39,816 nt of DNA from Bacteroidaceae bacterium (lineage in GTDB: Bacteria; Bacteroidota; Bacteroidia; Bacteroidales; Bacteroidaceae): positions 1 to 39,816 of the forward strand of contig JAFXQT010000039.1 in NCBI GenBank assembly GCA_017526905.1, given 5' to 3'. Below the pieces are notes generated by a model. The model had not been told where the DNA came from. It ran no database searches and was given only the letters and a program-made list of their open reading frames with translations. Each line of letters opens with the position of its first letter. Position 1 is the stretch's first letter. The translations under genes and the position numbers were made by a program. This document shows, one piece after another, positions 2,355 through 35,198 of the stretch.

Positions 2355-2628
2355 AGTTAGCTCTGGCCCTAACAAGCGTCCCCCACCGGGGGACTACAGG
2401 GGGCCTGAAAAGTGAAAAATAAAAGTAACCTCTGGCTCTAACGAGCGTCCCCCACCGGGGGACCACAGGGGGCCTGAAGAGATAAAAGATAAAAGATAAA
2501 AAATAAAAGTTACACCGACCTCTAACGAGTGTCCCCCACCGGGGGACTACAGGGGGCCTGAAGAGATAAAAAATAAAAGTAACCTCTGGCTCTAACGAGT
2601 GTCCCCCACCGGGGGACCACAGGGGGCC
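2355..2628 (+). repeat. Tandem array of four 28-nt GC-rich palindromic arms
   Basis: Four near-identical 28-nt cores lie at 2378-2405, 2447-2474, 2531-2558 and 2601-2628. Each has a C5-ACC-G5 palindrome followed by AC(T/C)ACAGGGGGCC. They are separated by A-rich spacers containing GATAAAA and TCTAACGAG. The cores match the right arm of the element at 3759-3786. All four point the same way, and the start-to-start spacing is 69, 84 and 70 bp. They lie between argR and the acyltransferase gene and could fold in the leader RNA. Confidence 0.85.
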
Positions 2629-2652
2629 AAAGGGGCCATAACACGACACAAC

Positions 2653-3741
2653 ATGGAAGAATCAAGCAAGATAAAAGCGGAGGACATCCAGATCCTGGTG
2701 GCCGACGAGAGCCACGAACGCTACGTTGATACCATCCTCAAAACGATTGAGGAGGCAGCCAAGGTGCGCGGCACAGGTATCGCCAAGCGCACACATGAGT
2801 ACGTGGCAACCAAGATGCGCGAGGCCAAGGCCGTGATTGCCCTGGCACCCGCAGGCGAGGGCCAGGAACCGGAGTTTGCCGGCTTCAGCTACATCGAGAC
2901 ATGGGGCAACAAGCAGTATGTCACCACCTCGGGCCTCATCGTCAACCCGCAATACCGCGGACTGGGCATTGCCAAGAAGATCAAGGACATGACCTTCTCG
3001 CTGGCTCGCATCCGCTGGCCACACGCCAAGATATTCTCACTGACCAGCGGCGCCGCCGTGATGAAGATGAACACGCAACTGGGCTACCAACCCGTCACCT
3101 TCGATGACCTTACGGATGACGAGGCCTTCTGGAAAGGGTGTGAGGGCTGCGTGAACGTGGAGGTGCTGCGCGAACGCAACCGCAAGTTCTGCATCTGCAC
3201 CGCCATGCTCTTCGACCCCGAGGAACACCTGCCCGCCAAGATTCCGCAGGAGGTGATCAACCGCATAAACAAATTGGAGGCCCCCTATTGTCCCCCGGAG
3301 GGGGACGAGCAGCGTTGCTCAAACCAAGCTAAAGGGAAAGTAACAGGCCCGAATAACAGCGATGCAGTATTCCGCAAGCCACTATATCAGACTGCCGATT
3401 GTTCCATTTATGGAAAGCTGAAAGAATTAGCAACCGAGAACAGGAAGAATCCGACCCAAGCCGAAACTGTCCTTTGGGAATACTTAAAAGAGAAAAGATT
3501 AGGAGTACCCTTCAGGAGGCAACAGGTTATTGGACAATTCATCGCAGACTTTGCTTGTCTGCAGCGCAAACTTGTTGTAGAAGTAGATGGTGGCTACCAC
3601 CAGCTTCCAGAACAGCAGGTCAGCGATAAGGAACGGACCAGCTGGCTACAAGCTCAAGGTTTAAGAGTGGTAAGATTCACCAACGATGAGGTTATTGGAA
3701 ATATTGAATCAGTAATAAATAGCATAAAGGAATCTCTATGA
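2653..3741 (+). CDS. GNAT acyltransferase (arginine pathway) fused to a DUF559 Vsr-like endonuclease
   Basis: Residues 1 to about 208 are a GNAT-family acyltransferase of the type found beside argG in Bacteroidota, probably acylating glutamate or an arginine intermediate; NPQYRGLGIAKKI is the acyl-CoA binding motif. The frame then runs without a stop through a palindromic arm (3279-3306) into a DUF559 domain (about 242-362). That domain has the PD-(D/E)xK signature FIADF followed by VVEVDGGYH, so its active site looks intact. The nuclease part is visibly poorer in G+C than its neighbours, which suggests transfer. No in-frame Met precedes it, so it is made only as a fusion or after processing. 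The start at 2653 lies just past the last array core; a GTG at 2599 inside that core is less likely. The stop overlaps argG by 4 nt (ATGA). Confidence 0.85.
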   Translation: MEESSKIKAEDIQILVADESHERYVDTILKTIEEAAKVRGTGIAKRTHEYVATKMREAKAVIALAPAGEGQEPEFAGFSYIETWGNKQYVTTSGLIVNPQYRGLGIAKKIKDMTFSLARIRWPHAKIFSLTSGAAVMKMNTQLGYQPVTFDDLTDDEAFWKGCEGCVNVEVLRERNRKFCICTAMLFDPEEHLPAKIPQEVINRINKLEAPYCPPEGDEQRCSNQAKGKVTGPNNSDAVFRKPLYQTADCSIYGKLKELATENRKNPTQAETVLWEYLKEKRLGVPFRRQQVIGQFIADFACLQRKLVVEVDGGYHQLPEQQVSDKERTSWLQAQGLRVVRFTNDEVIGNIESVINSIKESL

Positions 3742-3786
3742 AATCATCAACAAACATCGCCCCCCTCCGGGGGGCAACGGGGGGCC
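3279..3786 (+). mobile_element. Palindrome-armed element carrying the DUF559 nuclease gene
   Basis: A left arm of 28 nt (3279-3306) and a right arm of 28 nt (3759-3786) are inverted copies of each other, 24 of 28 positions identical. Each arm contains its own C5/G5 palindrome. Between them lies the DUF559 coding region, of lower G+C. The same 28-nt arms bracket a 20-nt spacer inside argF' (34551-34626), which looks like a cargo-less version. No target duplication is obvious. Calling it mobile is an inference from the paired arms, the cargo and the dispersed short copies. Confidence 0.6.
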
Positions 3787-4976: not shown

Positions 4977-6058
4977 TACGCGTAGGAATACTCGGGGCGG
5001 CAGGCTATACGGGCGGCGAGCTGATACGCCTGCTGCTGAACCACCCCGAAGCGGAAATTGTATTCGCCAACAGCGAATCGAATGCCGGCAACCCCGTTGC
5101 AGCCGTGCACGAGGGCCTCATCGGCGACACGGACCTGCAGTTCACTTCTGAGATGCCGTGGGATGCCGTTGATGTAGTGTTCTTCTGCTTCGGCCACGGC
5201 AAGAGCAAGCAGTTCCTCGGGGAACACGACATCCCCGAACGGGTCAGGATTATCGACCTGGCGCAGGACTTCAGGGTTGTGGGCCCCCTCCCGTCCCCCC
5301 CGAGGGGGGGCGCCCTCTCGAGCAACGGGCAAGCAACAACGAGCTACCCTCCCCAGGGAGGGGTCGGGGGTGGGCTTCACGGGAGTGCGCTTCACGGGAG
5401 TGGACTTCCAATCTACGGCCTGCCCGAACTGAACCGCGACGCCATCCGCACGGCCCACTTTGTGGCCAACCCCGGCTGCTTCGCCACCGCCATCCAGTTG
5501 GGGCTGCTGCCCGCAGCCGCCCACAGCCTCATCCATGACGATGTGCTGGTGCATGCCATCACGGGCTCGACGGGTGCCGGACAGAAGCCGGGTGCCACCA
5601 CCCACTTTTCCTGGCGGGCCGACAACCTGAGCATCTACAAGCCCTTCCAGCACCAGCATGTGCCGGAAATCAGGCAGTCGCTCAGACAGTTGCAGGCCGA
5701 CTTCAACGCCGCCATCGACTTCGTGCCCTACCGCGGTCCGTTTGCCCGCGGCATCTTCGCCACCTCGGTGGTAAAAGTGGAGGCCGATGTTCCCGAAGAG
5801 ACTTACGTGGAGATGTACCGCCAGTTCTACCACACGGCAGCCTTCACACACTACACCGACAAGGCGCTCGACCTGAAACAGGTGGTCAATACCAACAAGG
5901 CGCTGGTGCATGTGGAGAAATACGGCAACAAGCTGCTCATCACCAGCGTTATCGACAACCTGCTGAAAGGTGCCGTCGGCCAGGCCGTACAGAACATGAA
6001 CCTGATGTTCCATCTGGACGAGCGGACCGGGCTATGCCTGAAAGCCAGCGCCTTCTGA
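4973..6058 (+). CDS. argC: N-acyl-glutamyl-phosphate reductase ArgC with an in-frame palindrome insertion
   Basis: NADPH-dependent reductase of the third arginine step. The nucleotide-binding loop GAAGYTGGELIRLL is near the N-terminus, the catalytic Cys is residue 169 in NPGCFAT, and GSTGAGQKP and HQHVPEI follow. At 361 residues it is about 40 longer than usual. The excess is residues ~104-144, between DLAQDFR and YGLPELNR, which are normally close together. This stretch is rich in Gly, Pro and Ser (PSPPRGGALSS, GGVGGGLHGSALHGSG) and is encoded by two GC-rich palindromic arms at 5283-5405. The rest looks intact, so the enzyme is probably active with a surface loop. The start overlaps the argG stop. 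Confidence 0.94.
   Translation: MIRVGILGAAGYTGGELIRLLLNHPEAEIVFANSESNAGNPVAAVHEGLIGDTDLQFTSEMPWDAVDVVFFCFGHGKSKQFLGEHDIPERVRIIDLAQDFRVVGPLPSPPRGGALSSNGQATTSYPPQGGVGGGLHGSALHGSGLPIYGLPELNRDAIRTAHFVANPGCFATAIQLGLLPAAAHSLIHDDVLVHAITGSTGAGQKPGATTHFSWRADNLSIYKPFQHQHVPEIRQSLRQLQADFNAAIDFVPYRGPFARGIFATSVVKVEADVPEETYVEMYRQFYHTAAFTHYTDKALDLKQVVNTNKALVHVEKYGNKLLITSVIDNLLKGAVGQAVQNMNLMFHLDERTGLCLKASAF
5283..5405 (+). repeat. Palindromic element inside argC (class B pair)
   Basis: A C-rich/G-rich palindrome at about 5287-5312 is followed by a linker with CAACAACGAG and a second palindrome CCCTCCCCAGGGAGGGG (5347-5363). Then comes a GGGGGTGGGCTTCAC tail repeated three times with a 15-bp period (5366, 5381, 5396). 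The arrangement matches the intergenic copies at 9742 and 17204. The frame stays open throughout. Confidence 0.8.
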
Positions 6059-23987: not shown

Positions 23988-25106
23988 TCACGCGAAGGTC
24001 AGCCTGAACGTGGTGGTGTAGCCTGACTCGGGCCTGTCCATCAGTTCGAGGTTGCCGCCCTGCCGCACCATGATCTGACGGGACAGAGCGAGACCGATGC
24101 CGGTGCCGCCGTGTTTGGTTGTAAAGAAGGGGATGAAGATGCTATCGCGGTCGGCGGCGGGGATGGGAGCGCCGTTATTTGAAATGAAAAGTGAATGAGT
24201 GAAAAGTGAAAAATAAGAATTACTTTCAGAAGTCATTAGTTTCTCAGAGGAAGAAACATGGCCCATTCCATTAGCTTCAGGTAACATATATTTTTCACTT
24301 TTCACTCTTTCACTTTTCACTCTTATCCTCCTCGCCCTCCCTGTTAGGGAGGGAGCAGAATGTATTAGACTGGATGAAAGAGTGTAATTATCAAAGGTAA
24401 CCGCTCCCTCCCTAACAGGGAGGGCGGGGGGAGAGTCTACCTTTATCCTCCCCGCCCCCGCTTCCACGGCATTCTTCACCAGGTTCACCACCACCTGCTG
24501 CAGAAGGACAGGGTCGGCATGAACGACCATGCCGTCCATGTCCGCTACGTCCCATGTCAACTGCGGATAGAGGCGCTGCACCTCGGCGAAGAAGGTATCC
24601 AGGGCCACGTCCTCGGGGTTGGGCTGCTGCAGCTGTGCCAGTTTGCGATAGCTGTCCACGAAGGCGGTAAGGCGGGCAGCCGTGGTATTGATGCTGCGGA
24701 TGCCCGCTTCGAGGGGTGTGCCAACGACGTCGGCACGGTGCAACAAGCTCTGGCTGATGCTGGCGATGGGCGCGGTGGAGTTCATGATTTCGTGGGTCAG
24801 CACGCGTGTGAGCCGTTCCCACGACTCCACCTCGCTCCGGTTCACCTGCTGGTGGATGATCTCGCCCAGGTCGTTCAGCGTTTCTTGCATGGCCCGCTCG
24901 CCGCTGGCCAGACCGCGCGTGCTCAGGCGGAACGACCAGTCGTGGTTACGAATGGCCTCGCGCATCAGGTGGGCACGACGACGCAGCGAGCGCTGGTGGC
25001 GGACAAAGACAAGGAAGAGACAGCATAAAAGTAACAAAAGGACAGCCCATCCCCAACCCCTCACTGGGAAGGGGAGATAGGAGGCTAACAAGTCTATTAC
25101 TACCAT
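23988..25106 (-). CDS. Sensor histidine kinase with a large repeat insertion in its ATPase domain
   Basis: A 372-residue membrane kinase and likely partner of the response regulator at 25242. One clear membrane helix lies at about 19-36. The H-box LTRVLTHEIMNS has the phospho-accepting His at 105, and the N-box NLVKNAVEAG has its Asn at 212. Between the N-box and the G region (SNNGAPIP, ~309-316; HGGTGIGLALS, ~332-342) lies an insertion of about 80 residues (~225-307), encoded by nested repeats at 24187-24436, with no stop codon. Residues ~10-19 (YLPFPVRGWG) are encoded by another palindromic arm (25044-25076). The insertion sits where the ATP-lid region begins, so activity may be altered or lost. 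The start at 25106 is the only suitable one. Confidence 0.85.
   Translation of the reverse strand: MVVIDLLASYLPFPVRGWGWAVLLLLLCCLFLVFVRHQRSLRRRAHLMREAIRNHDWSFRLSTRGLASGERAMQETLNDLGEIIHQQVNRSEVESWERLTRVLTHEIMNSTAPIASISQSLLHRADVVGTPLEAGIRSINTTAARLTAFVDSYRKLAQLQQPNPEDVALDTFFAEVQRLYPQLTWDVADMDGMVVHADPVLLQQVVVNLVKNAVEAGAGRIKVDSPPALPVREGAVTFDNYTLSSSLIHSAPSLTGRARRIRVKSERVKSEKYMLPEANGMGHVSSSEKLMTSESNSYFSLFTHSLFISNNGAPIPAADRDSIFIPFFTTKHGGTGIGLALSRQIMVRQGGNLELMDRPESGYTTTFRLTFA
24197..24307. repeat. 19-bp inverted repeat inside the kinase gene
   Basis: GAGTGAAAAGTGAAAAATA (24197-24215) and its exact inverse complement (24289-24307) bracket 73 bp of A/T-rich DNA unlike the surrounding gene. It adjoins the class C element and together they form the in-frame insertion. 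Confidence 0.8.
24319..24436. repeat. Class C palindrome pair inside the kinase gene
   Basis: Left arm 24319-24356 and right arm 24403-24436 are inverted copies with a perfect 23-nt core; each arm contains CCCTCCCT-GTTA-type palindromes. The spacer is 46 nt. A single right-type arm lies in proA at 33562-33595. Confidence 0.85.
25044..25076. repeat. Class B arm encoding part of the kinase N-terminus
   Basis: GCCCATCCCCAACCCCTCAC followed by TGGGAAGGGGAGATAG. On the minus strand it is read as part of the kinase N-terminal segment just before the membrane helix. Confidence 0.65.
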
Positions 25107-27498: not shown

Positions 27499-28671
27499 AT
27501 GCAATTATTTGACGTATATCCGCTCTTCCCCATCAACATCGTGCGTGGCCAAGGCTGCCGCGTGTGGGACGAGCAGGGCACCGAATACCTCGACCTGTAT
27601 GGCGGGCACGCCGTGATTAGCATCGGCCACGCCCACCCGCACTATGTAGAAGCCGTCAGTCGGCAAGTGAGCCAGCTGGGATTCTACTCCAACTCCGTAG
27701 TGAACAAGCTGCAACAACAGCTGGCCGAACGTCTGGGCCGTGCCTGCGGCTACGAGGATTACCGACTGTTCCTCATCAACAGCGGTGCCGAGGCCAACGA
27801 GAATGCGCTGAAGCTGGCATCCTTCCACACAGGCCGCACCCGCGTGCTCGCAGCACAGAAAGCATTCCACGGACGCACCAGCCTGGCCGTGGAAGCAACA
27901 GCCAATCCTAAAATCATAGCTCCTATCAATGCCAACGGACACGTCACCTTCCTGCCGCTGAACGACTTGGCGGCATGGAGCGCCGAGCTGGCCAAAGGTG
28001 ATGTGGCGGCCTGTATCGTGGAGTGCATCCAAGGTGTGGGCGGCATCCAGCTGGCCACGGCCGAGTTCATGCAGGGGCTGCGCAAAGCCTGCGACGAAAC
28101 GGGCACCGTGCTCATCTGCGATGAGATTCAATGTGGCTACGGGCGCAGCGGCAAGTTCTTTGCCCACCAGTGGCTGATGGACACCTCCGCCGCCAGTGAA
28201 GGCTGGAAGGGGGCGCCCGACATCATCACCGTGGCCAAGGGCATTGCCAACGGCTTCCCCATGGGCGGGGTGCTCATCTCGCCGAAGTTCGAGGCTGTGT
28301 ATGGCCAGCTGGGCACCACCTTCGGCGGCAACCACCTGGCCTGTGCCGCAGCGCTGGCCGTGCTGGATGTCATCGAGGGCGAAGGGCTCATCGAGAACGC
28401 CCGCAAGGTGGGCGAATACCTGATGAAGGAACTGGCCAACACCGCCGGAGGGTTGTGTACGGACGTGCGCGGCCGCGGCCTGATGATCGGCATCGAGCTC
28501 AGCGTGCCATACAAGGAAGTGCGCCAGCGCCTGCTCTTCGACCAACACGTATTCACGGGCTGTGCGGGCACCCACGTGCTGCGCCTGCTGCCGCCGCTGT
28601 GCCTGAGCATGGCCGAGGCTGAGGAGTTTCTGGAGAAGTTCAAGAAGGTGCTCGGAGAGGGGGAGGAGTAA
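27499..28671 (+). CDS. argD: N-acyl-ornithine aminotransferase ArgD
   Basis: A PLP-dependent class III aminotransferase of 390 residues that forms N-acetyl- or N-succinyl-ornithine from the semialdehyde. Visible features are NSGAEANENALKLA (phosphate binding), CDEIQCGYGRSGKF with the PLP-binding Asp, and TVAKGIANGFPMG with the Schiff-base Lys. The length is normal. The start at 27499 is fixed by the promoter. With the succinylornithine-type carbamoyltransferase downstream, the natural substrate may be the succinyl form, but that cannot be read from this protein. It is separated from argC by the 20-kb efflux region. Confidence 0.93.
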   Translation: MQLFDVYPLFPINIVRGQGCRVWDEQGTEYLDLYGGHAVISIGHAHPHYVEAVSRQVSQLGFYSNSVVNKLQQQLAERLGRACGYEDYRLFLINSGAEANENALKLASFHTGRTRVLAAQKAFHGRTSLAVEATANPKIIAPINANGHVTFLPLNDLAAWSAELAKGDVAACIVECIQGVGGIQLATAEFMQGLRKACDETGTVLICDEIQCGYGRSGKFFAHQWLMDTSAASEGWKGAPDIITVAKGIANGFPMGGVLISPKFEAVYGQLGTTFGGNHLACAAALAVLDVIEGEGLIENARKVGEYLMKELANTAGGLCTDVRGRGLMIGIELSVPYKEVRQRLLFDQHVFTGCAGTHVLRLLPPLCLSMAEAEEFLEKFKKVLGEGEE

Positions 28672-28673
28672 TC

Positions 28674-28790
28674 AGAATAATCGGAAAACTCTGAGTACTC
28701 TGAGTATTCTGAGTACTCTGAATAATCGGAATAATCTGAGTACTCTGAATAATCTGAGTACTCCGAGAACTCTGAGAACTCGGAAAGTTA
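28674..28790 (+). repeat. Minisatellite after argD (about 10-bp units)
   Basis: About a dozen variants of TCTGAGTACT/TCTGAATAAT with a period near 10 bp fill most of the gap between argD and the next gene. There is no hairpin with a T tract. Confidence 0.8.
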
Positions 28791-28813
28791 AATCAACAAA
28801 ATAGCATAAAAGA

Positions 28814-29383: not shown

Positions 29384-31135
29384 ATGGTAGAAAGATTTCT
29401 GAAACAAACACACTTCACTTCCTACGAGGACTACAACGAGCACCTGGAGTTCATCATCCCAGAGCACTTCAACTTCGCCTACGATGTCATGGACGCTTGG
29501 GCCGAGGAGGCACCCGACAAGCTGGCCCTGCTCTGGACCAACGACGAGGGGGCCGAACGGCGCGCCACCTTCGGACAACTCAAGGCCGAAAGCGACCAGG
29601 CAGCCGCCTACCTGCAGAGCCTTGGCATCGGCAAGGGCGACCCGGTGATGCTCATCCTGAAACGACGCTATGAGTGGTGGGTCACCATGCTGGCCCTGCA
29701 TAAGCTGGCAGCAGTGGTCATTCCTGCCACACACATGCTGACCAAACACGACATTATATATAGGAACACACGCGCAAGCATCAAAGCCATCATCTGCGTG
29801 GACGACGCGTATGTGATGAGCCAGGTGGAGGCCGCCCTGCCCGAAAGCCCCACTGTGGAAGCCCTGATCAAAGTAAGCGCCTCCCCCAAGGCACCAGCAC
29901 CGTCGGATGCCGCACATACTCGCACGGAATGGCACGACTACCACTCCGAGATCGCAGCCTTCAGCACCTTCGAGCGTCCTGCCGCAAAGAACGACAACGA
30001 CGACACGATGATCATGTACTTCACCAGCGGCACCTCGGGCGAGCCGAAGATGGTGGCTCACGACTTCCTCTACGCCATGGGGCACCTCACCACTGGCGTG
30101 TTCTGGCACAACCTCAGCGAGGACTCCATACACCTCACTGTGGCCGACACGGGCTGGGGCAAGGCCGTGTGGGGCAAGTTCTACGGACAGTGGTTTGCCG
30201 GCGCCACGGTGTTCGTCTTCGACCACGAGAAATTCGATGCCGACCGCCTGCTGCGCCAGATGGAGAAGTACCGCGTGACGAGCTTCTGCGCCCCACCAAC
30301 CATCTACCGCTTCATGATTCGCGAAGACCTGTCGAAATACGACCTCAGCGCCCTGCGCTACTGCTGCACAGCGGGCGAGGCACTGAATCCCGCCGTTTAT
30401 GACAAGTTCTTGGAGCAGACGGGCATACGCCTGATGGAGGGCTTCGGACAGACGGAGACCACCATGACGCTGGGCACCATGCCCTGGATGGAACCCAAGC
30501 CCGGCTCAATGGGCAAGCCCAACGGGCAGTACCAGATAGACTTGCTGAAGCCCGACGGAACGCCCTGCGAAGACGGTGAGAAGGGAGAGATTGTGATAGT
30601 AGCACCCTGTCCCCAAATGGGAGACACTGCGAGCACGAACGCCAGCGCCCCCCGCCGGGGGGCTAAGGGGGGCTGTCCCATCGGCCTGTTCAAGGAATAC
30701 TACCGCGACCCCGAACTGACGCACGAAGCCTGGCACGACGGGCTGTACCACACAGGCGACATGGCCTGGCGCGACGAGGACGGCTACTACTGGTTCGAGG
30801 GCCGCATAGACGATGTGATCAAGAGCAGCGGCTACCGCATCGGTCCCTTCGAGGTGGAAAGCGCGCTCATGACACACCCCGCCGTGGTGGAATGTGCCAT
30901 CACAGGCGTGCCCGACGACATACGCGGCATGGTGGTAAAGGCCACCATCGTGCTGGGCAAGGAGTGGAAGGACAAGGCCGGCGACGACCTCATCAAGGAG
31001 CTGCAACAACACGTCAAACACGAGACAGCCCCCTACAAATACCCCCGCATCATCGAATTCGTGGACGAACTGCCCAAGACCATCAGCGGCAAGATACGCA
31101 GGGTAGAAATCCGCAATAAAGATAAGAAAAAATGA
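29384..31135 (+). CDS. AMP-forming acyl-CoA synthetase with an in-frame palindrome insertion
   Basis: A 583-residue adenylate-forming ligase activating an acid with ATP and CoA (acetyl- or medium-chain acyl-CoA synthetase type; substrate not clear). The AMP-binding P-loop MYFTSGTSGEPKMVAH is at about 210-225; EGFGQTET, YHTGD and the C-terminal KTISGKIRR with the catalytic Lys are present. At about 406-430 the segment running from PCPQMGDTAS to RRGAKGGCPIG is encoded by a class A palindrome pair (30601-30674), just before GLFKEYYRDP. It lies on the surface side of the hinge region, so activity may survive. The stop overlaps proC by 4 nt. Confidence 0.92.
   Translation: MVERFLKQTHFTSYEDYNEHLEFIIPEHFNFAYDVMDAWAEEAPDKLALLWTNDEGAERRATFGQLKAESDQAAAYLQSLGIGKGDPVMLILKRRYEWWVTMLALHKLAAVVIPATHMLTKHDIIYRNTRASIKAIICVDDAYVMSQVEAALPESPTVEALIKVSASPKAPAPSDAAHTRTEWHDYHSEIAAFSTFERPAAKNDNDDTMIMYFTSGTSGEPKMVAHDFLYAMGHLTTGVFWHNLSEDSIHLTVADTGWGKAVWGKFYGQWFAGATVFVFDHEKFDADRLLRQMEKYRVTSFCAPPTIYRFMIREDLSKYDLSALRYCCTAGEALNPAVYDKFLEQTGIRLMEGFGQTETTMTLGTMPWMEPKPGSMGKPNGQYQIDLLKPDGTPCEDGEKGEIVIVAPCPQMGDTASTNASAPRRGAKGGCPIGLFKEYYRDPELTHEAWHDGLYHTGDMAWRDEDGYYWFEGRIDDVIKSSGYRIGPFEVESALMTHPAVVECAITGVPDDIRGMVVKATIVLGKEWKDKAGDDLIKELQQHVKHETAPYKYPRIIEFVDELPKTISGKIRRVEIRNKDKKK
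30601..30674 (+). repeat. Class A palindromic element inside the acyl-CoA synthetase gene
   Basis: The right arm 30647-30674 (28 nt, C6-G-CC-G6 palindrome followed by CTAAGGGGGGCT) matches the arms at 3759 and 34599. The left arm at about 30601-30625 is degenerate. The frame stays open. Confidence 0.75.
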
Positions 31136-34067: not shown

Positions 34068-35198
34068 ATGAAAATATTCCAACACGTACAAGACATCGGC
34101 GACCTCCGCGTCGCCCTCGCAGAAGCGCAGGAAGTGAAGCGCGACCGTTTCCAGTGGCAGCACTTAGGCAAGAACAAGACGGCGCTGCTCATCTTCTTTA
34201 ACAACTCGCTGCGCACGCGCCTCAGCACGCAGAAGGCGGCCATGAACCTGGGCATGAACGTGATTGTGCTCGACGTGAACCAAGGTGCCTGGAAGTTAGA
34301 GACGGAGCGCGGTGTCGTCATGGACGGCGACAAGAGCGAGCATCTGCTGGAAGCCATCCCCGTGATGGCCTCCTACTGCGACCTCATCGGCGTGCGCTCC
34401 TTCGCCCGCTTCGAAAGCCGCCAGGACGACTACGAGGAGAAAATCCTGAACCAGTTCATCCGCTACTCGGGCCGCCCCGTGTTCTTCATGGAGAGTGCCA
34501 CGGTGCATCCGCTGCAGGCCTTCGCTGACCTTATTACGATTGCAGAGTATAGCCCCCTATGGTCCCCCGCCGGGGGACAAACAGAGTCCACTGGCAATGC
34601 CCTCCACCGGGGGGCTACGGGGGGCCATTCCATCAAGGTTGTCATGACCTGGGCACCGCATCCCAAGGCCCTGCCGCAGGCCGTGCCAAATAGCTTCGCC
34701 GAGTGGATGAATGCCGCCGCTAACCTCAGTGCCCATTCTCCTCTGTTCACCCCTCCCCAGGGAGGGGCCGGGGGTGGGCTCTCAGGGGGTGGGCTCTCAG
34801 GGGGTGGGCTCTCCATCGACTTCGTCATCACGCACCCCGAGGGCTATGAGCTCGACCCGCAGTTCGTGGGCGATGCCCGCGTGGAGTACGACCAGATGAA
34901 GGCCTTCGAGGGTGCCGACTTCATTTATGCCAAGAACTGGAGCTGCCCTGGCGTGACACGGCCCGACGACTACGGCAAGGTACTGCACGACTACCACACC
35001 ATGATGGACTGGTGCGTCAGTGCCCGCCAGATGGCTGTGACCAACGATGCCCACTTCATGCACTGCCTGCCCGTGCGCCGCAACATGATTGTCACCGACG
35101 ACGTCATCGAAGGTCCCCGCAGCCTCGTCATTCCCGAAGCTGCCAACCGCGAGATATCTGCCCAAGTGGTGCTGAAGCGGATGCTGGAGGCACTATAG
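34068..35198 (+). CDS. argF': N-succinylornithine carbamoyltransferase (argF') with two in-frame palindrome insertions
   Basis: Transfers carbamoyl phosphate to an N-acylated ornithine in the arginine pathway of Bacteroidota. Conserved parts are FFNNSLRTRLSTQ (carbamoyl phosphate), HPLQAFADLIT, VVMTWAPHPKALPQAVPNSF, ITHPEGYEL and HCLPVRRNM. Residue 90, in DGDKSEH, is Ser. In the characterised enzymes Glu at this position selects acetyl- and Pro selects succinyl-ornithine; a Ser mutant of the acetyl enzyme is known to favour the succinyl substrate, so succinyl use is expected. The 376-residue protein is longer than usual because of insertions at residues ~162-187 (class A pair) and ~228-249 (class B, ending GGGLSGGGLSGGGLS). 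Both lie between conserved blocks. Confidence 0.93.
   Translation: MKIFQHVQDIGDLRVALAEAQEVKRDRFQWQHLGKNKTALLIFFNNSLRTRLSTQKAAMNLGMNVIVLDVNQGAWKLETERGVVMDGDKSEHLLEAIPVMASYCDLIGVRSFARFESRQDDYEEKILNQFIRYSGRPVFFMESATVHPLQAFADLITIAEYSPLWSPAGGQTESTGNALHRGATGGHSIKVVMTWAPHPKALPQAVPNSFAEWMNAAANLSAHSPLFTPPQGGAGGGLSGGGLSGGGLSIDFVITHPEGYELDPQFVGDARVEYDQMKAFEGADFIYAKNWSCPGVTRPDDYGKVLHDYHTMMDWCVSARQMAVTNDAHFMHCLPVRRNMIVTDDVIEGPRSLVIPEAANREISAQVVLKRMLEAL
34551..34626 (+). repeat. Class A palindrome pair inside argF' (cargo-less form)
   Basis: Arms of 28 nt (34551-34578 and 34599-34626) are inverted, imperfect copies of each other and of the arms around the DUF559 gene. The spacer is only 20 nt. It is translated without a stop. 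Confidence 0.8.
34749..34814 (+). repeat. Class B palindrome with 15-bp tail repeats inside argF'
   Basis: CCCCTCCCCAGGGAGGGG followed by three GGGGTGGGCTCTCAG units with an exact 15-bp period (34771, 34786, 34801), each read as GGGLS. Confidence 0.85.

Follow-up and report, generated by a model that had tools for sequence, protein, structure and literature searches.

What moves the palindromes that lie inside bacterial protein genes? Rickettsia palindromic elements (RPEs) are palindromic, scattered in frame through unrelated protein genes, and translated, and the consulted part of PMC10969869 describes such palindromes without a known mover. A locus in a Bacteroidaceae genome (GenBank assembly GCA_017526905.1, contig JAFXQT010000039.1, positions 1 to 39,816; this whole stretch is referred to here as the window) bears on this question. 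A preliminary description of the window had proposed an autonomous element at 3279 to 3786, with a DUF559 (Vsr-like) nuclease rather than a transposase as its mover and with scattered arms as its short derivatives. The observation was confirmed and is larger than was reported; its most unusual feature, translation in frame with a host gene, had been missed. We place at roughly 0.7 the probability that the locus holds an autonomous, palindrome-bounded, homing-like mobile element that resides in frame, encodes a Vsr/EDxHD-type nuclease, and is translated as part of host genes. Because the enzyme, arms, empty sites, and hosts of this candidate autonomous form are defined, the question of what moves such palindromes becomes testable.

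Anatomy of the element

The 508-nt unit at 3279 to 3786 consists of inverted C/G-rich arms, each a tail plus a hairpin, around a DUF559 nuclease frame:

3279..3308, forward strand: left arm, a C-rich tail (GGCCCCC) followed by the hairpin GTCCCCCGGAGGGGGAC at 3290-3306, within the open frame of the upstream GNAT-like ORF
3309..3414, forward strand: in-frame linker that ends in the motif YQTADCSIYGKL, without an in-frame ATG, GTG, or TTG between arm and domain
3415..3741, forward strand: DUF559 nuclease domain (PF04480, Vsr/EDxHD-like) and stop codon
3738..3741, forward strand: ATGA, the DUF559 stop overlapping the argG start codon
3757..3786, reverse strand: right arm, the inverted copy, with its hairpin at 3759-3775, read in the argG frame as IAPLRGATGGR

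On recomputation, the arms at 3279-3306 and 3759-3786 are identical at 24 of 28 positions, as first described, and a repeat search extends them to 3279-3308 and 3757-3786 (30 nt, 87%). The reported drop in G+C between them also holds (0.441 in the interior versus 0.584 in the whole window), as does the identity of the frame (PF04480, E value of 1.9e-32 in a Pfam search of the ORF). The residues invariant in the alignments, E, D, E, D, and H among them, are present in the window's domain. The DUF559 profile further reaches an "endonuclease-like protein" (3hrl, 8.1e-31) and a "mobile intron protein" (3r3p, E value of 1.1e-7), the latter of which we take to be I-Bth0305I, an EDxHD homing nuclease. 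The linker motif YQTADCSIYGKL is common to the Bacteroidota elements in the alignment as roughly [YW].TA.P..Y.L. Whereas a DDE insertion sequence carries a transposase gene, the ORF list and Pfam showed no such gene between the window arms, where the DUF559 frame stands alone.

The setting between two arginine genes was only partly as described, with argG downstream but a GNAT-like gene as the immediate upstream neighbor, the GNAT label being that of the preliminary description and Pfam at an E value of 1e-3 giving no GNAT match. The ORF at 2599-3741 is open from this gene across the left arm to the end of DUF559, the argG frame passes through the right arm, and both arms lie inside translated frames. 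The only families that Pfam (E value of 1e-3) assigned to the fused ORF were DUF559 and a nuclease family related to it. Since no ATG, GTG, or TTG stands in frame between the left arm and DUF559, the nuclease lacks a start of its own here and should be made as a fusion. At the other end, the ATGA overlap indicates that the argG start codon is supplied by the DUF559 end of the element.

The window holds two further repeats, a separate element at 124-981, whose 93-nt inverted arms (91%) are 672 nt apart and enclose more inverted repeats, and a tandem array at 28647-28803 with about a dozen copies of a 9-nt unit.

Inverted arms around DUF559 genes at other loci

The plan of tail-hairpin arm, DUF559, and inverted arm, approximately 0.45 to 0.7 kb long and without a transposase, recurs at other loci. 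A profile search of this genome (79% complete) found five DUF559 matches, all five of which lie between inverted arms; the arm sequence differs from copy to copy, and the copies precede argG, fmt, leuD, korB, and cysS (genes named by eye). Arms were counted at an inverted-arm score of at least 15, a strict criterion that excludes visible imperfect arms (e.g., at L075, L096, and L134). In the genus set of 35 loci (this genome's five and the best of 30 more), arms passed in 28, compared with 110 of 1190 mispaired left and right flanks and 1 of 201 nearby windows, so that the finding named beforehand as fatal to the mobile reading, a consistent lack of arms in relatives, fails. The scan set comprised the best 80 of 578 confirmed DUF559 loci in named genomes, mostly Bacteroidota with one MAG named Nitrotoga; here, 39 passed (54/1185 mispaired flanks and 0/456 nearby windows), both sets being best-scoring matches rather than random samples and overlapping in part (L073 is on a G048 contig, and each of the pairs L082/L016, L135/L019, and L148/L027 is one element or two identical ones).

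A plasmid-collection set of 17 loci, chosen for spread among 40 matching records from Cyanobacteria, Deinococcota, and Pseudomonadota, gave 11 loci with arms versus 19 of 272 mispaired flanks and 4 of 272 nearby windows. Arms were present in Deinococcus (4/4, three of these in like gene clusters), Sphingomonas (3/3, all from one strain), Pseudanabaena, Picosynechococcus, Azospirillum lipoferum, and Qipengyuania; Azospirillum brasilense, E. coli, Photobacterium, Methylobacterium, and two Synechocystis loci fell below the threshold. Altogether, 7/35 genus, 41/80 scan, and 6/17 plasmid loci did so, and several of these still show a weaker arm. The mispaired-flank and nearby-window controls rule out chance or mere terminators as the source of the arms.

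Some loci depart from the common arrangement. In three elements at an acyl-CoA-dehydrogenase-like gene named by eye (L008, L009, and L010), the right arm is approximately 45 codons inside the downstream gene, and what lies between DUF559 and this arm resembles coding sequence of the host; in L012, L020, and L029, which are related elements, the right arm precedes the start codon of the downstream gene. The hairpin is outside and the G-rich tail inside in L220 and L222 (Sphingomonas and Qipengyuania), the opposite of the order in Bacteroidota elements. Short DUF559 matches in G123 and G124 (profile positions ~66 to 108, open frames of 161 to 195 aa) are perhaps decayed or partial copies.

The extent of the mobile unit is indicated by a relative, G093, in which two copies 4.6 kb apart in different genes have 96 of 104 residues alike. 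When their DNA is aligned, the likeness extends from AGACTCTCCCC to GGGGAGAGTC and no farther, that is, exactly arm to arm, which implies that the bounded unit is what moves. The loops of this pair (L212) are exchanged, left TTTCC and right TAACA versus left TGTTA and right GGAAA, as if the interior had been flipped between its arms, and this suggests an inversion. No target-site duplication was seen by eye at this pair or at the metH sites described below. The pair differs by a dN of 0.038 and a dS of 0.354 (ratio, 0.11), the latter value placing the duplication in the not very recent past. Four of nine DUF559 pairs gave a dN/dS of 0.10 to 0.12, the other five being saturated at synonymous sites; the nuclease is under purifying selection.

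Cargo-free arms and nuclease copy number

Arms also occur without a nuclease, and the cargo-free copies given in the preliminary description are real. In addition to a hairpin at 30647, between two AMP-binding domains, the window contains the following:

2378..2629, no strand assigned: four tandem cargo-free arms (hairpins at 2378-2617) of the same family as the arms of the 3279-3786 unit, between argR and the GNAT-like gene
5282..5377, forward strand: cargo-free arm pair in frame inside argC, within the Semialdhyde_dh (NAD-binding) domain
24330..24429, reverse strand: cargo-free inverted pair (27-nt arms, 96%) inside the frame of a histidine-kinase-like ORF, assigned by eye to the arm family of the L001 DUF559 element
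34551..34626, forward strand: cargo-free arm pair in frame between the OTCace_N and OTCace domains of an argF-like gene

A survey of 259 kb of this genome found 46 C-rich hairpins, and 18 of these fall within an ORF that is at least 200 aa long and continues for 20 or more codons to either side of the hairpin; the cargo-free pairs in this survey were left-right in six cases and right-right in five.

Across 121 genomes of the genus, hairpin count rises with DUF559 copy number (Spearman 0.65; 0.58 when partial on genome size), a correlation that ignores descent and for which a tree of 30 genomes gives three supported independent pairs, on average 0.7 to 0.9 agreeing, 0 disagreeing, and 2.1 to 2.3 equal. 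The median number of hairpin sites is 2 in the 37 genomes without DUF559 and 10, 19.5, 37, 42.5, and 76 in those with one to five copies, and the five genomes with 6, 7, and 8 copies have 219, 73, and 81. In one genome, G018, the assembly (80% complete) contains 123 hairpins and gave no match to DUF559.

These numbers bear on an alternative in which the palindromes are REP-like and moved by another enzyme, a RAYT/Y1 transposase or an unknown one, with the DUF559 gene a passenger caught between two of them. Its appeal lies in the REP-like shape of the arms, in the excess of cargo-free arms over nuclease genes (77 hairpin matches versus 5 DUF559 in this genome), and in Y1_Tnp, which is over the cut-off in 44 of the 121 genomes and correlates weakly with hairpin count (0.22). 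However, this correlation vanishes given genome size (0.07), and a profile search for Y1_Tnp (PF01797) found none in this 79%-complete genome; on these two grounds, we rejected RAYT as the mover. Furthermore, the same cargo recurs with its own matched arms in several phyla, and the nuclease is under purifying selection. We consider this explanation unlikely.

Occupied and empty sites

If the element is mobile in the sense proposed, relatives should include genomes with empty sites, and such sites were found at both junctions compared. Of 30 argG loci fetched, 27 were readable, and a DUF559 end stands directly before argG in three (G000, which is the present genome, G048, and G015). The other 24 have no DUF559 end in the 150 nt before argG, which begins there with MKKKVVVAFSGG or similar; the GNAT-like gene ends in EFRD in several of them, and a few have a lone palindrome at the junction. 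Relative to G042, for example, what the element has replaced is the last part of the upstream gene, the spacer, and the first codons of argG. A fixed ancestral GNAT-DUF559-argG operon, which would have spoken against mobility, is ruled out by the occupancy of only 3 of 27 readable loci.

The second comparison was at metH in the genus Flavobacterium, where 96 of 101 genomes match a 467-residue occupied MetH query somewhere and at least 11 match over its full length. In many others, the match falls into two adjoining parts, residues 1 to ~149 and from ~283. We read the DNA of 11 occupied and 19 unoccupied loci, and the linker is uninterrupted in 19/19 of the latter, which are the closest matches rather than a random draw. 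In occupied genes, arm, DUF559, and inverted arm take the place of QAGDKQGN (approximately 8 codons, more in some) between ...EASK and GKILM; the right junction hardly differs between loci, and the left one varies. In a tree of host sequences, the occupied metH of F. frigidimaris is nested among empty genomes on supported branches, and at least three changes are needed.

A DUF559 tree (122 rows and 125 columns) indicates how often elements changed site: 87 elements at 25 host sites need 29 site changes, where 24 is the least possible for 25 labels and 100 shuffles gave at least 64, on a tree that is short, with many forks open and most site names read by eye from the downstream protein. Elements at the same site are thus mostly each other's relatives, as in homing or vertical descent, and site changes have been numerous across the whole family. 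Empty sites in relatives, the arm-to-arm likeness of the G093 pair, and cargo-free relatives in the same genome together bear out the mobile-unit part of the preliminary claim.

Residence inside host genes

In 44 of the 80 scan loci, the open frame that contains DUF559 extends for at least 60 residues ahead of the domain and at least 40 beyond it. A Pfam search covered 19 ORFs, namely, 16 of these 44 loci, the window ORF, and L116 and L147, in which the upstream part is shorter. Hosts split by or beside DUF559 are methionyl-, valyl-, isoleucyl-, and leucyl-tRNA synthetases, UvrA, MetH, RecG, GH31, DegT, UDP-GlcNAc 2-epimerase, a poly(A)-polymerase head domain, NAD-dependent epimerase, polysaccharide-synthesis domains, the aconitase family, amino-acid kinase, and chorismate synthase, with the limits that some loci end within the gene and that, in a few, the insert is near one end of the host. 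In the isoleucyl-tRNA synthetase (IleRS) group, the sole full-length IleRS match carries the insert in all five genomes checked, and the remaining matches are weak paralogues or other DUF559 copies. Of 67 armed elements, 57 continue into an ORF downstream, but such an ORF also occurs in 585 of 1308 random windows; the right-arm frame count is therefore weak taken alone, and the argG and metH comparisons and the Pfam assignments carry the claim.

Residence in housekeeping genes that are single copy where checked could also be expected of domesticated DUF559 domains that serve the host, for example in DNA repair or gene regulation, the hairpins then being only RNA terminators or attenuators. Purifying selection would fit this explanation as well. 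So would the DUF559 protein VsrA of Caulobacter, which the consulted portion of PMC12907096 ties to cytosine methylation, SOS, and a role in DNA damage and regards as a probable repair enzyme, and which counts against the mobile-element reading. Set against domestication are the unrelated hosts at the 25 labelled sites, the patchy presence between relatives, and the duplicated unit in G093, whose copies lie in different genes, and we regard it as improbable. Slightly less probable still is a self-splicing insert, intein- or intron-like with DUF559 as its homing nuclease: residence in frame inside essential enzymes and kinship to the mobile-intron nuclease 3r3p would suit it, but there is no Rfam intron in 12 loci at the gathering score and no intein domain among the Pfam matches of the 19 ORFs, host linker residues are replaced and the left junction varies at metH, and operon-junction copies would need no splicing. 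The one Rfam match in the 12 loci was a Flavo-1 RNA in L112, outside the insert.

Proposed mechanism and relation to known systems

Under the mobile-element reading, the element keeps the reading frame of the housekeeping proteins in which it lies, frequently at a linker, or else occupies a tight junction within an operon; at such a junction, translation of the upstream gene can continue into the element, which in turn provides the start codon of the downstream gene. Given such residence, the nuclease would be made from the host's expression signals. The host product would stay functional despite the insert, and residence in frame is our proposed way by which harm is avoided. Given the kinship of DUF559 to 3r3p, we propose spread by cutting and repair, in which the Vsr/EDxHD-type nuclease would cut or nick unoccupied alleles or hairpin ends and repair would copy the element in, replacing a short host stretch. 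In most cases, the element would return to the corresponding site of a related genome (homing) and would rarely enter a new one, and loss of its interior would leave the arms only, as scattered in-frame palindromes. The cleavage target, the nuclease as mover, homing, a functional host product, and the origin of cargo-free arms by deletion are steps that we infer, nuclease-driven movement being a proposal from sequence kinship and distribution. What stands of the original claim of an autonomous, nuclease-moved element is thus the discrete arm-nuclease-arm unit at different loci, with the mover role among the inferred steps.

Parts of this system are already known, namely, REP-like hairpins, in-frame palindromes (RPEs), and Vsr-like homing nucleases. 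By description, RPEs resemble the present element in being palindromic, in frame in unrelated genes, and translated; they are ~150 bp, and the consulted part of PMC10969869 mentions no nuclease gene, whereas here full copies carry DUF559 and coexist with arms-only copies in one genome. REPINs and REPtrons are alike in having tail-plus-hairpin REPs, inverted pairs, a gene between repeats, and many short derivatives (PMC3733652, in the part consulted), but the gene of the REPtron is a Y1 HUH transposase (RAYT, or TnpA-REP) in place of a DUF559 nuclease. I-Bth0305I and other EDxHD/Vsr-like homing endonucleases share a related nuclease domain, and homing behavior is likely here too. Excerpts of PMC3943268 describe I-Bth0305I as a long multidomain homing nuclease of group I introns, in contrast to the nuclease domain of ~110 aa here, which is hairpin-bounded, translated with its host, and in the 12 loci searched accompanied by no intron. 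Likewise, inteins reside in frame in conserved genes with a nuclease, but a splicing domain was not found in the 19 ORFs here, and host residues are replaced. The Pfam domain is shared with Vsr-like DUF559 proteins, such as VsrA and E. coli YcjD (COG2852); the single E. coli locus examined fell below the arm threshold. A DUF559 gene was called a member of the EDxHD homing family in a 2022 cyanobacterial genome paper (PMC9403480, consulted in part).

A literature search, mainly of titles and abstract openings and thus not proof of absence, found no published description of a transposase-free, host-translated nuclease element without a splicing part. The combination of known parts appears to be new, although a cautious reader could see a variant of homing elements. 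We lean, by a little over even odds, toward a widespread class of mobile DNA beside introns and inteins that does without splicing: a hairpin-bounded nuclease element that homes, occasionally jumps, and endures because its in-frame insertion lets it be translated as a tolerated domain of essential proteins, with its arms-only relics being the bacterial coding palindromes that have long lacked an explanation and the nuclease their mover. If true, this would be a mobile element that spares its host by in-frame translation rather than by splicing and that occurs even in an enzyme like IleRS; part of DUF559, a large family of unknown function, would thereby gain a role.

Judged by eye, a GTAG tag is absent from the listed DUF559-locus arms of the genus, scan, and plasmid sets. 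The window arm family reads CGTCCCCC at the hairpin foot (in the tandem copies after argR, e.g., at 2377-2406), and the other arm families do not. This foot resembles the CGTC tag of REPs that are said, in the consulted part of PMC3733652, to lack a transposase, and a link between CGTCCCCC and that tag is possible.
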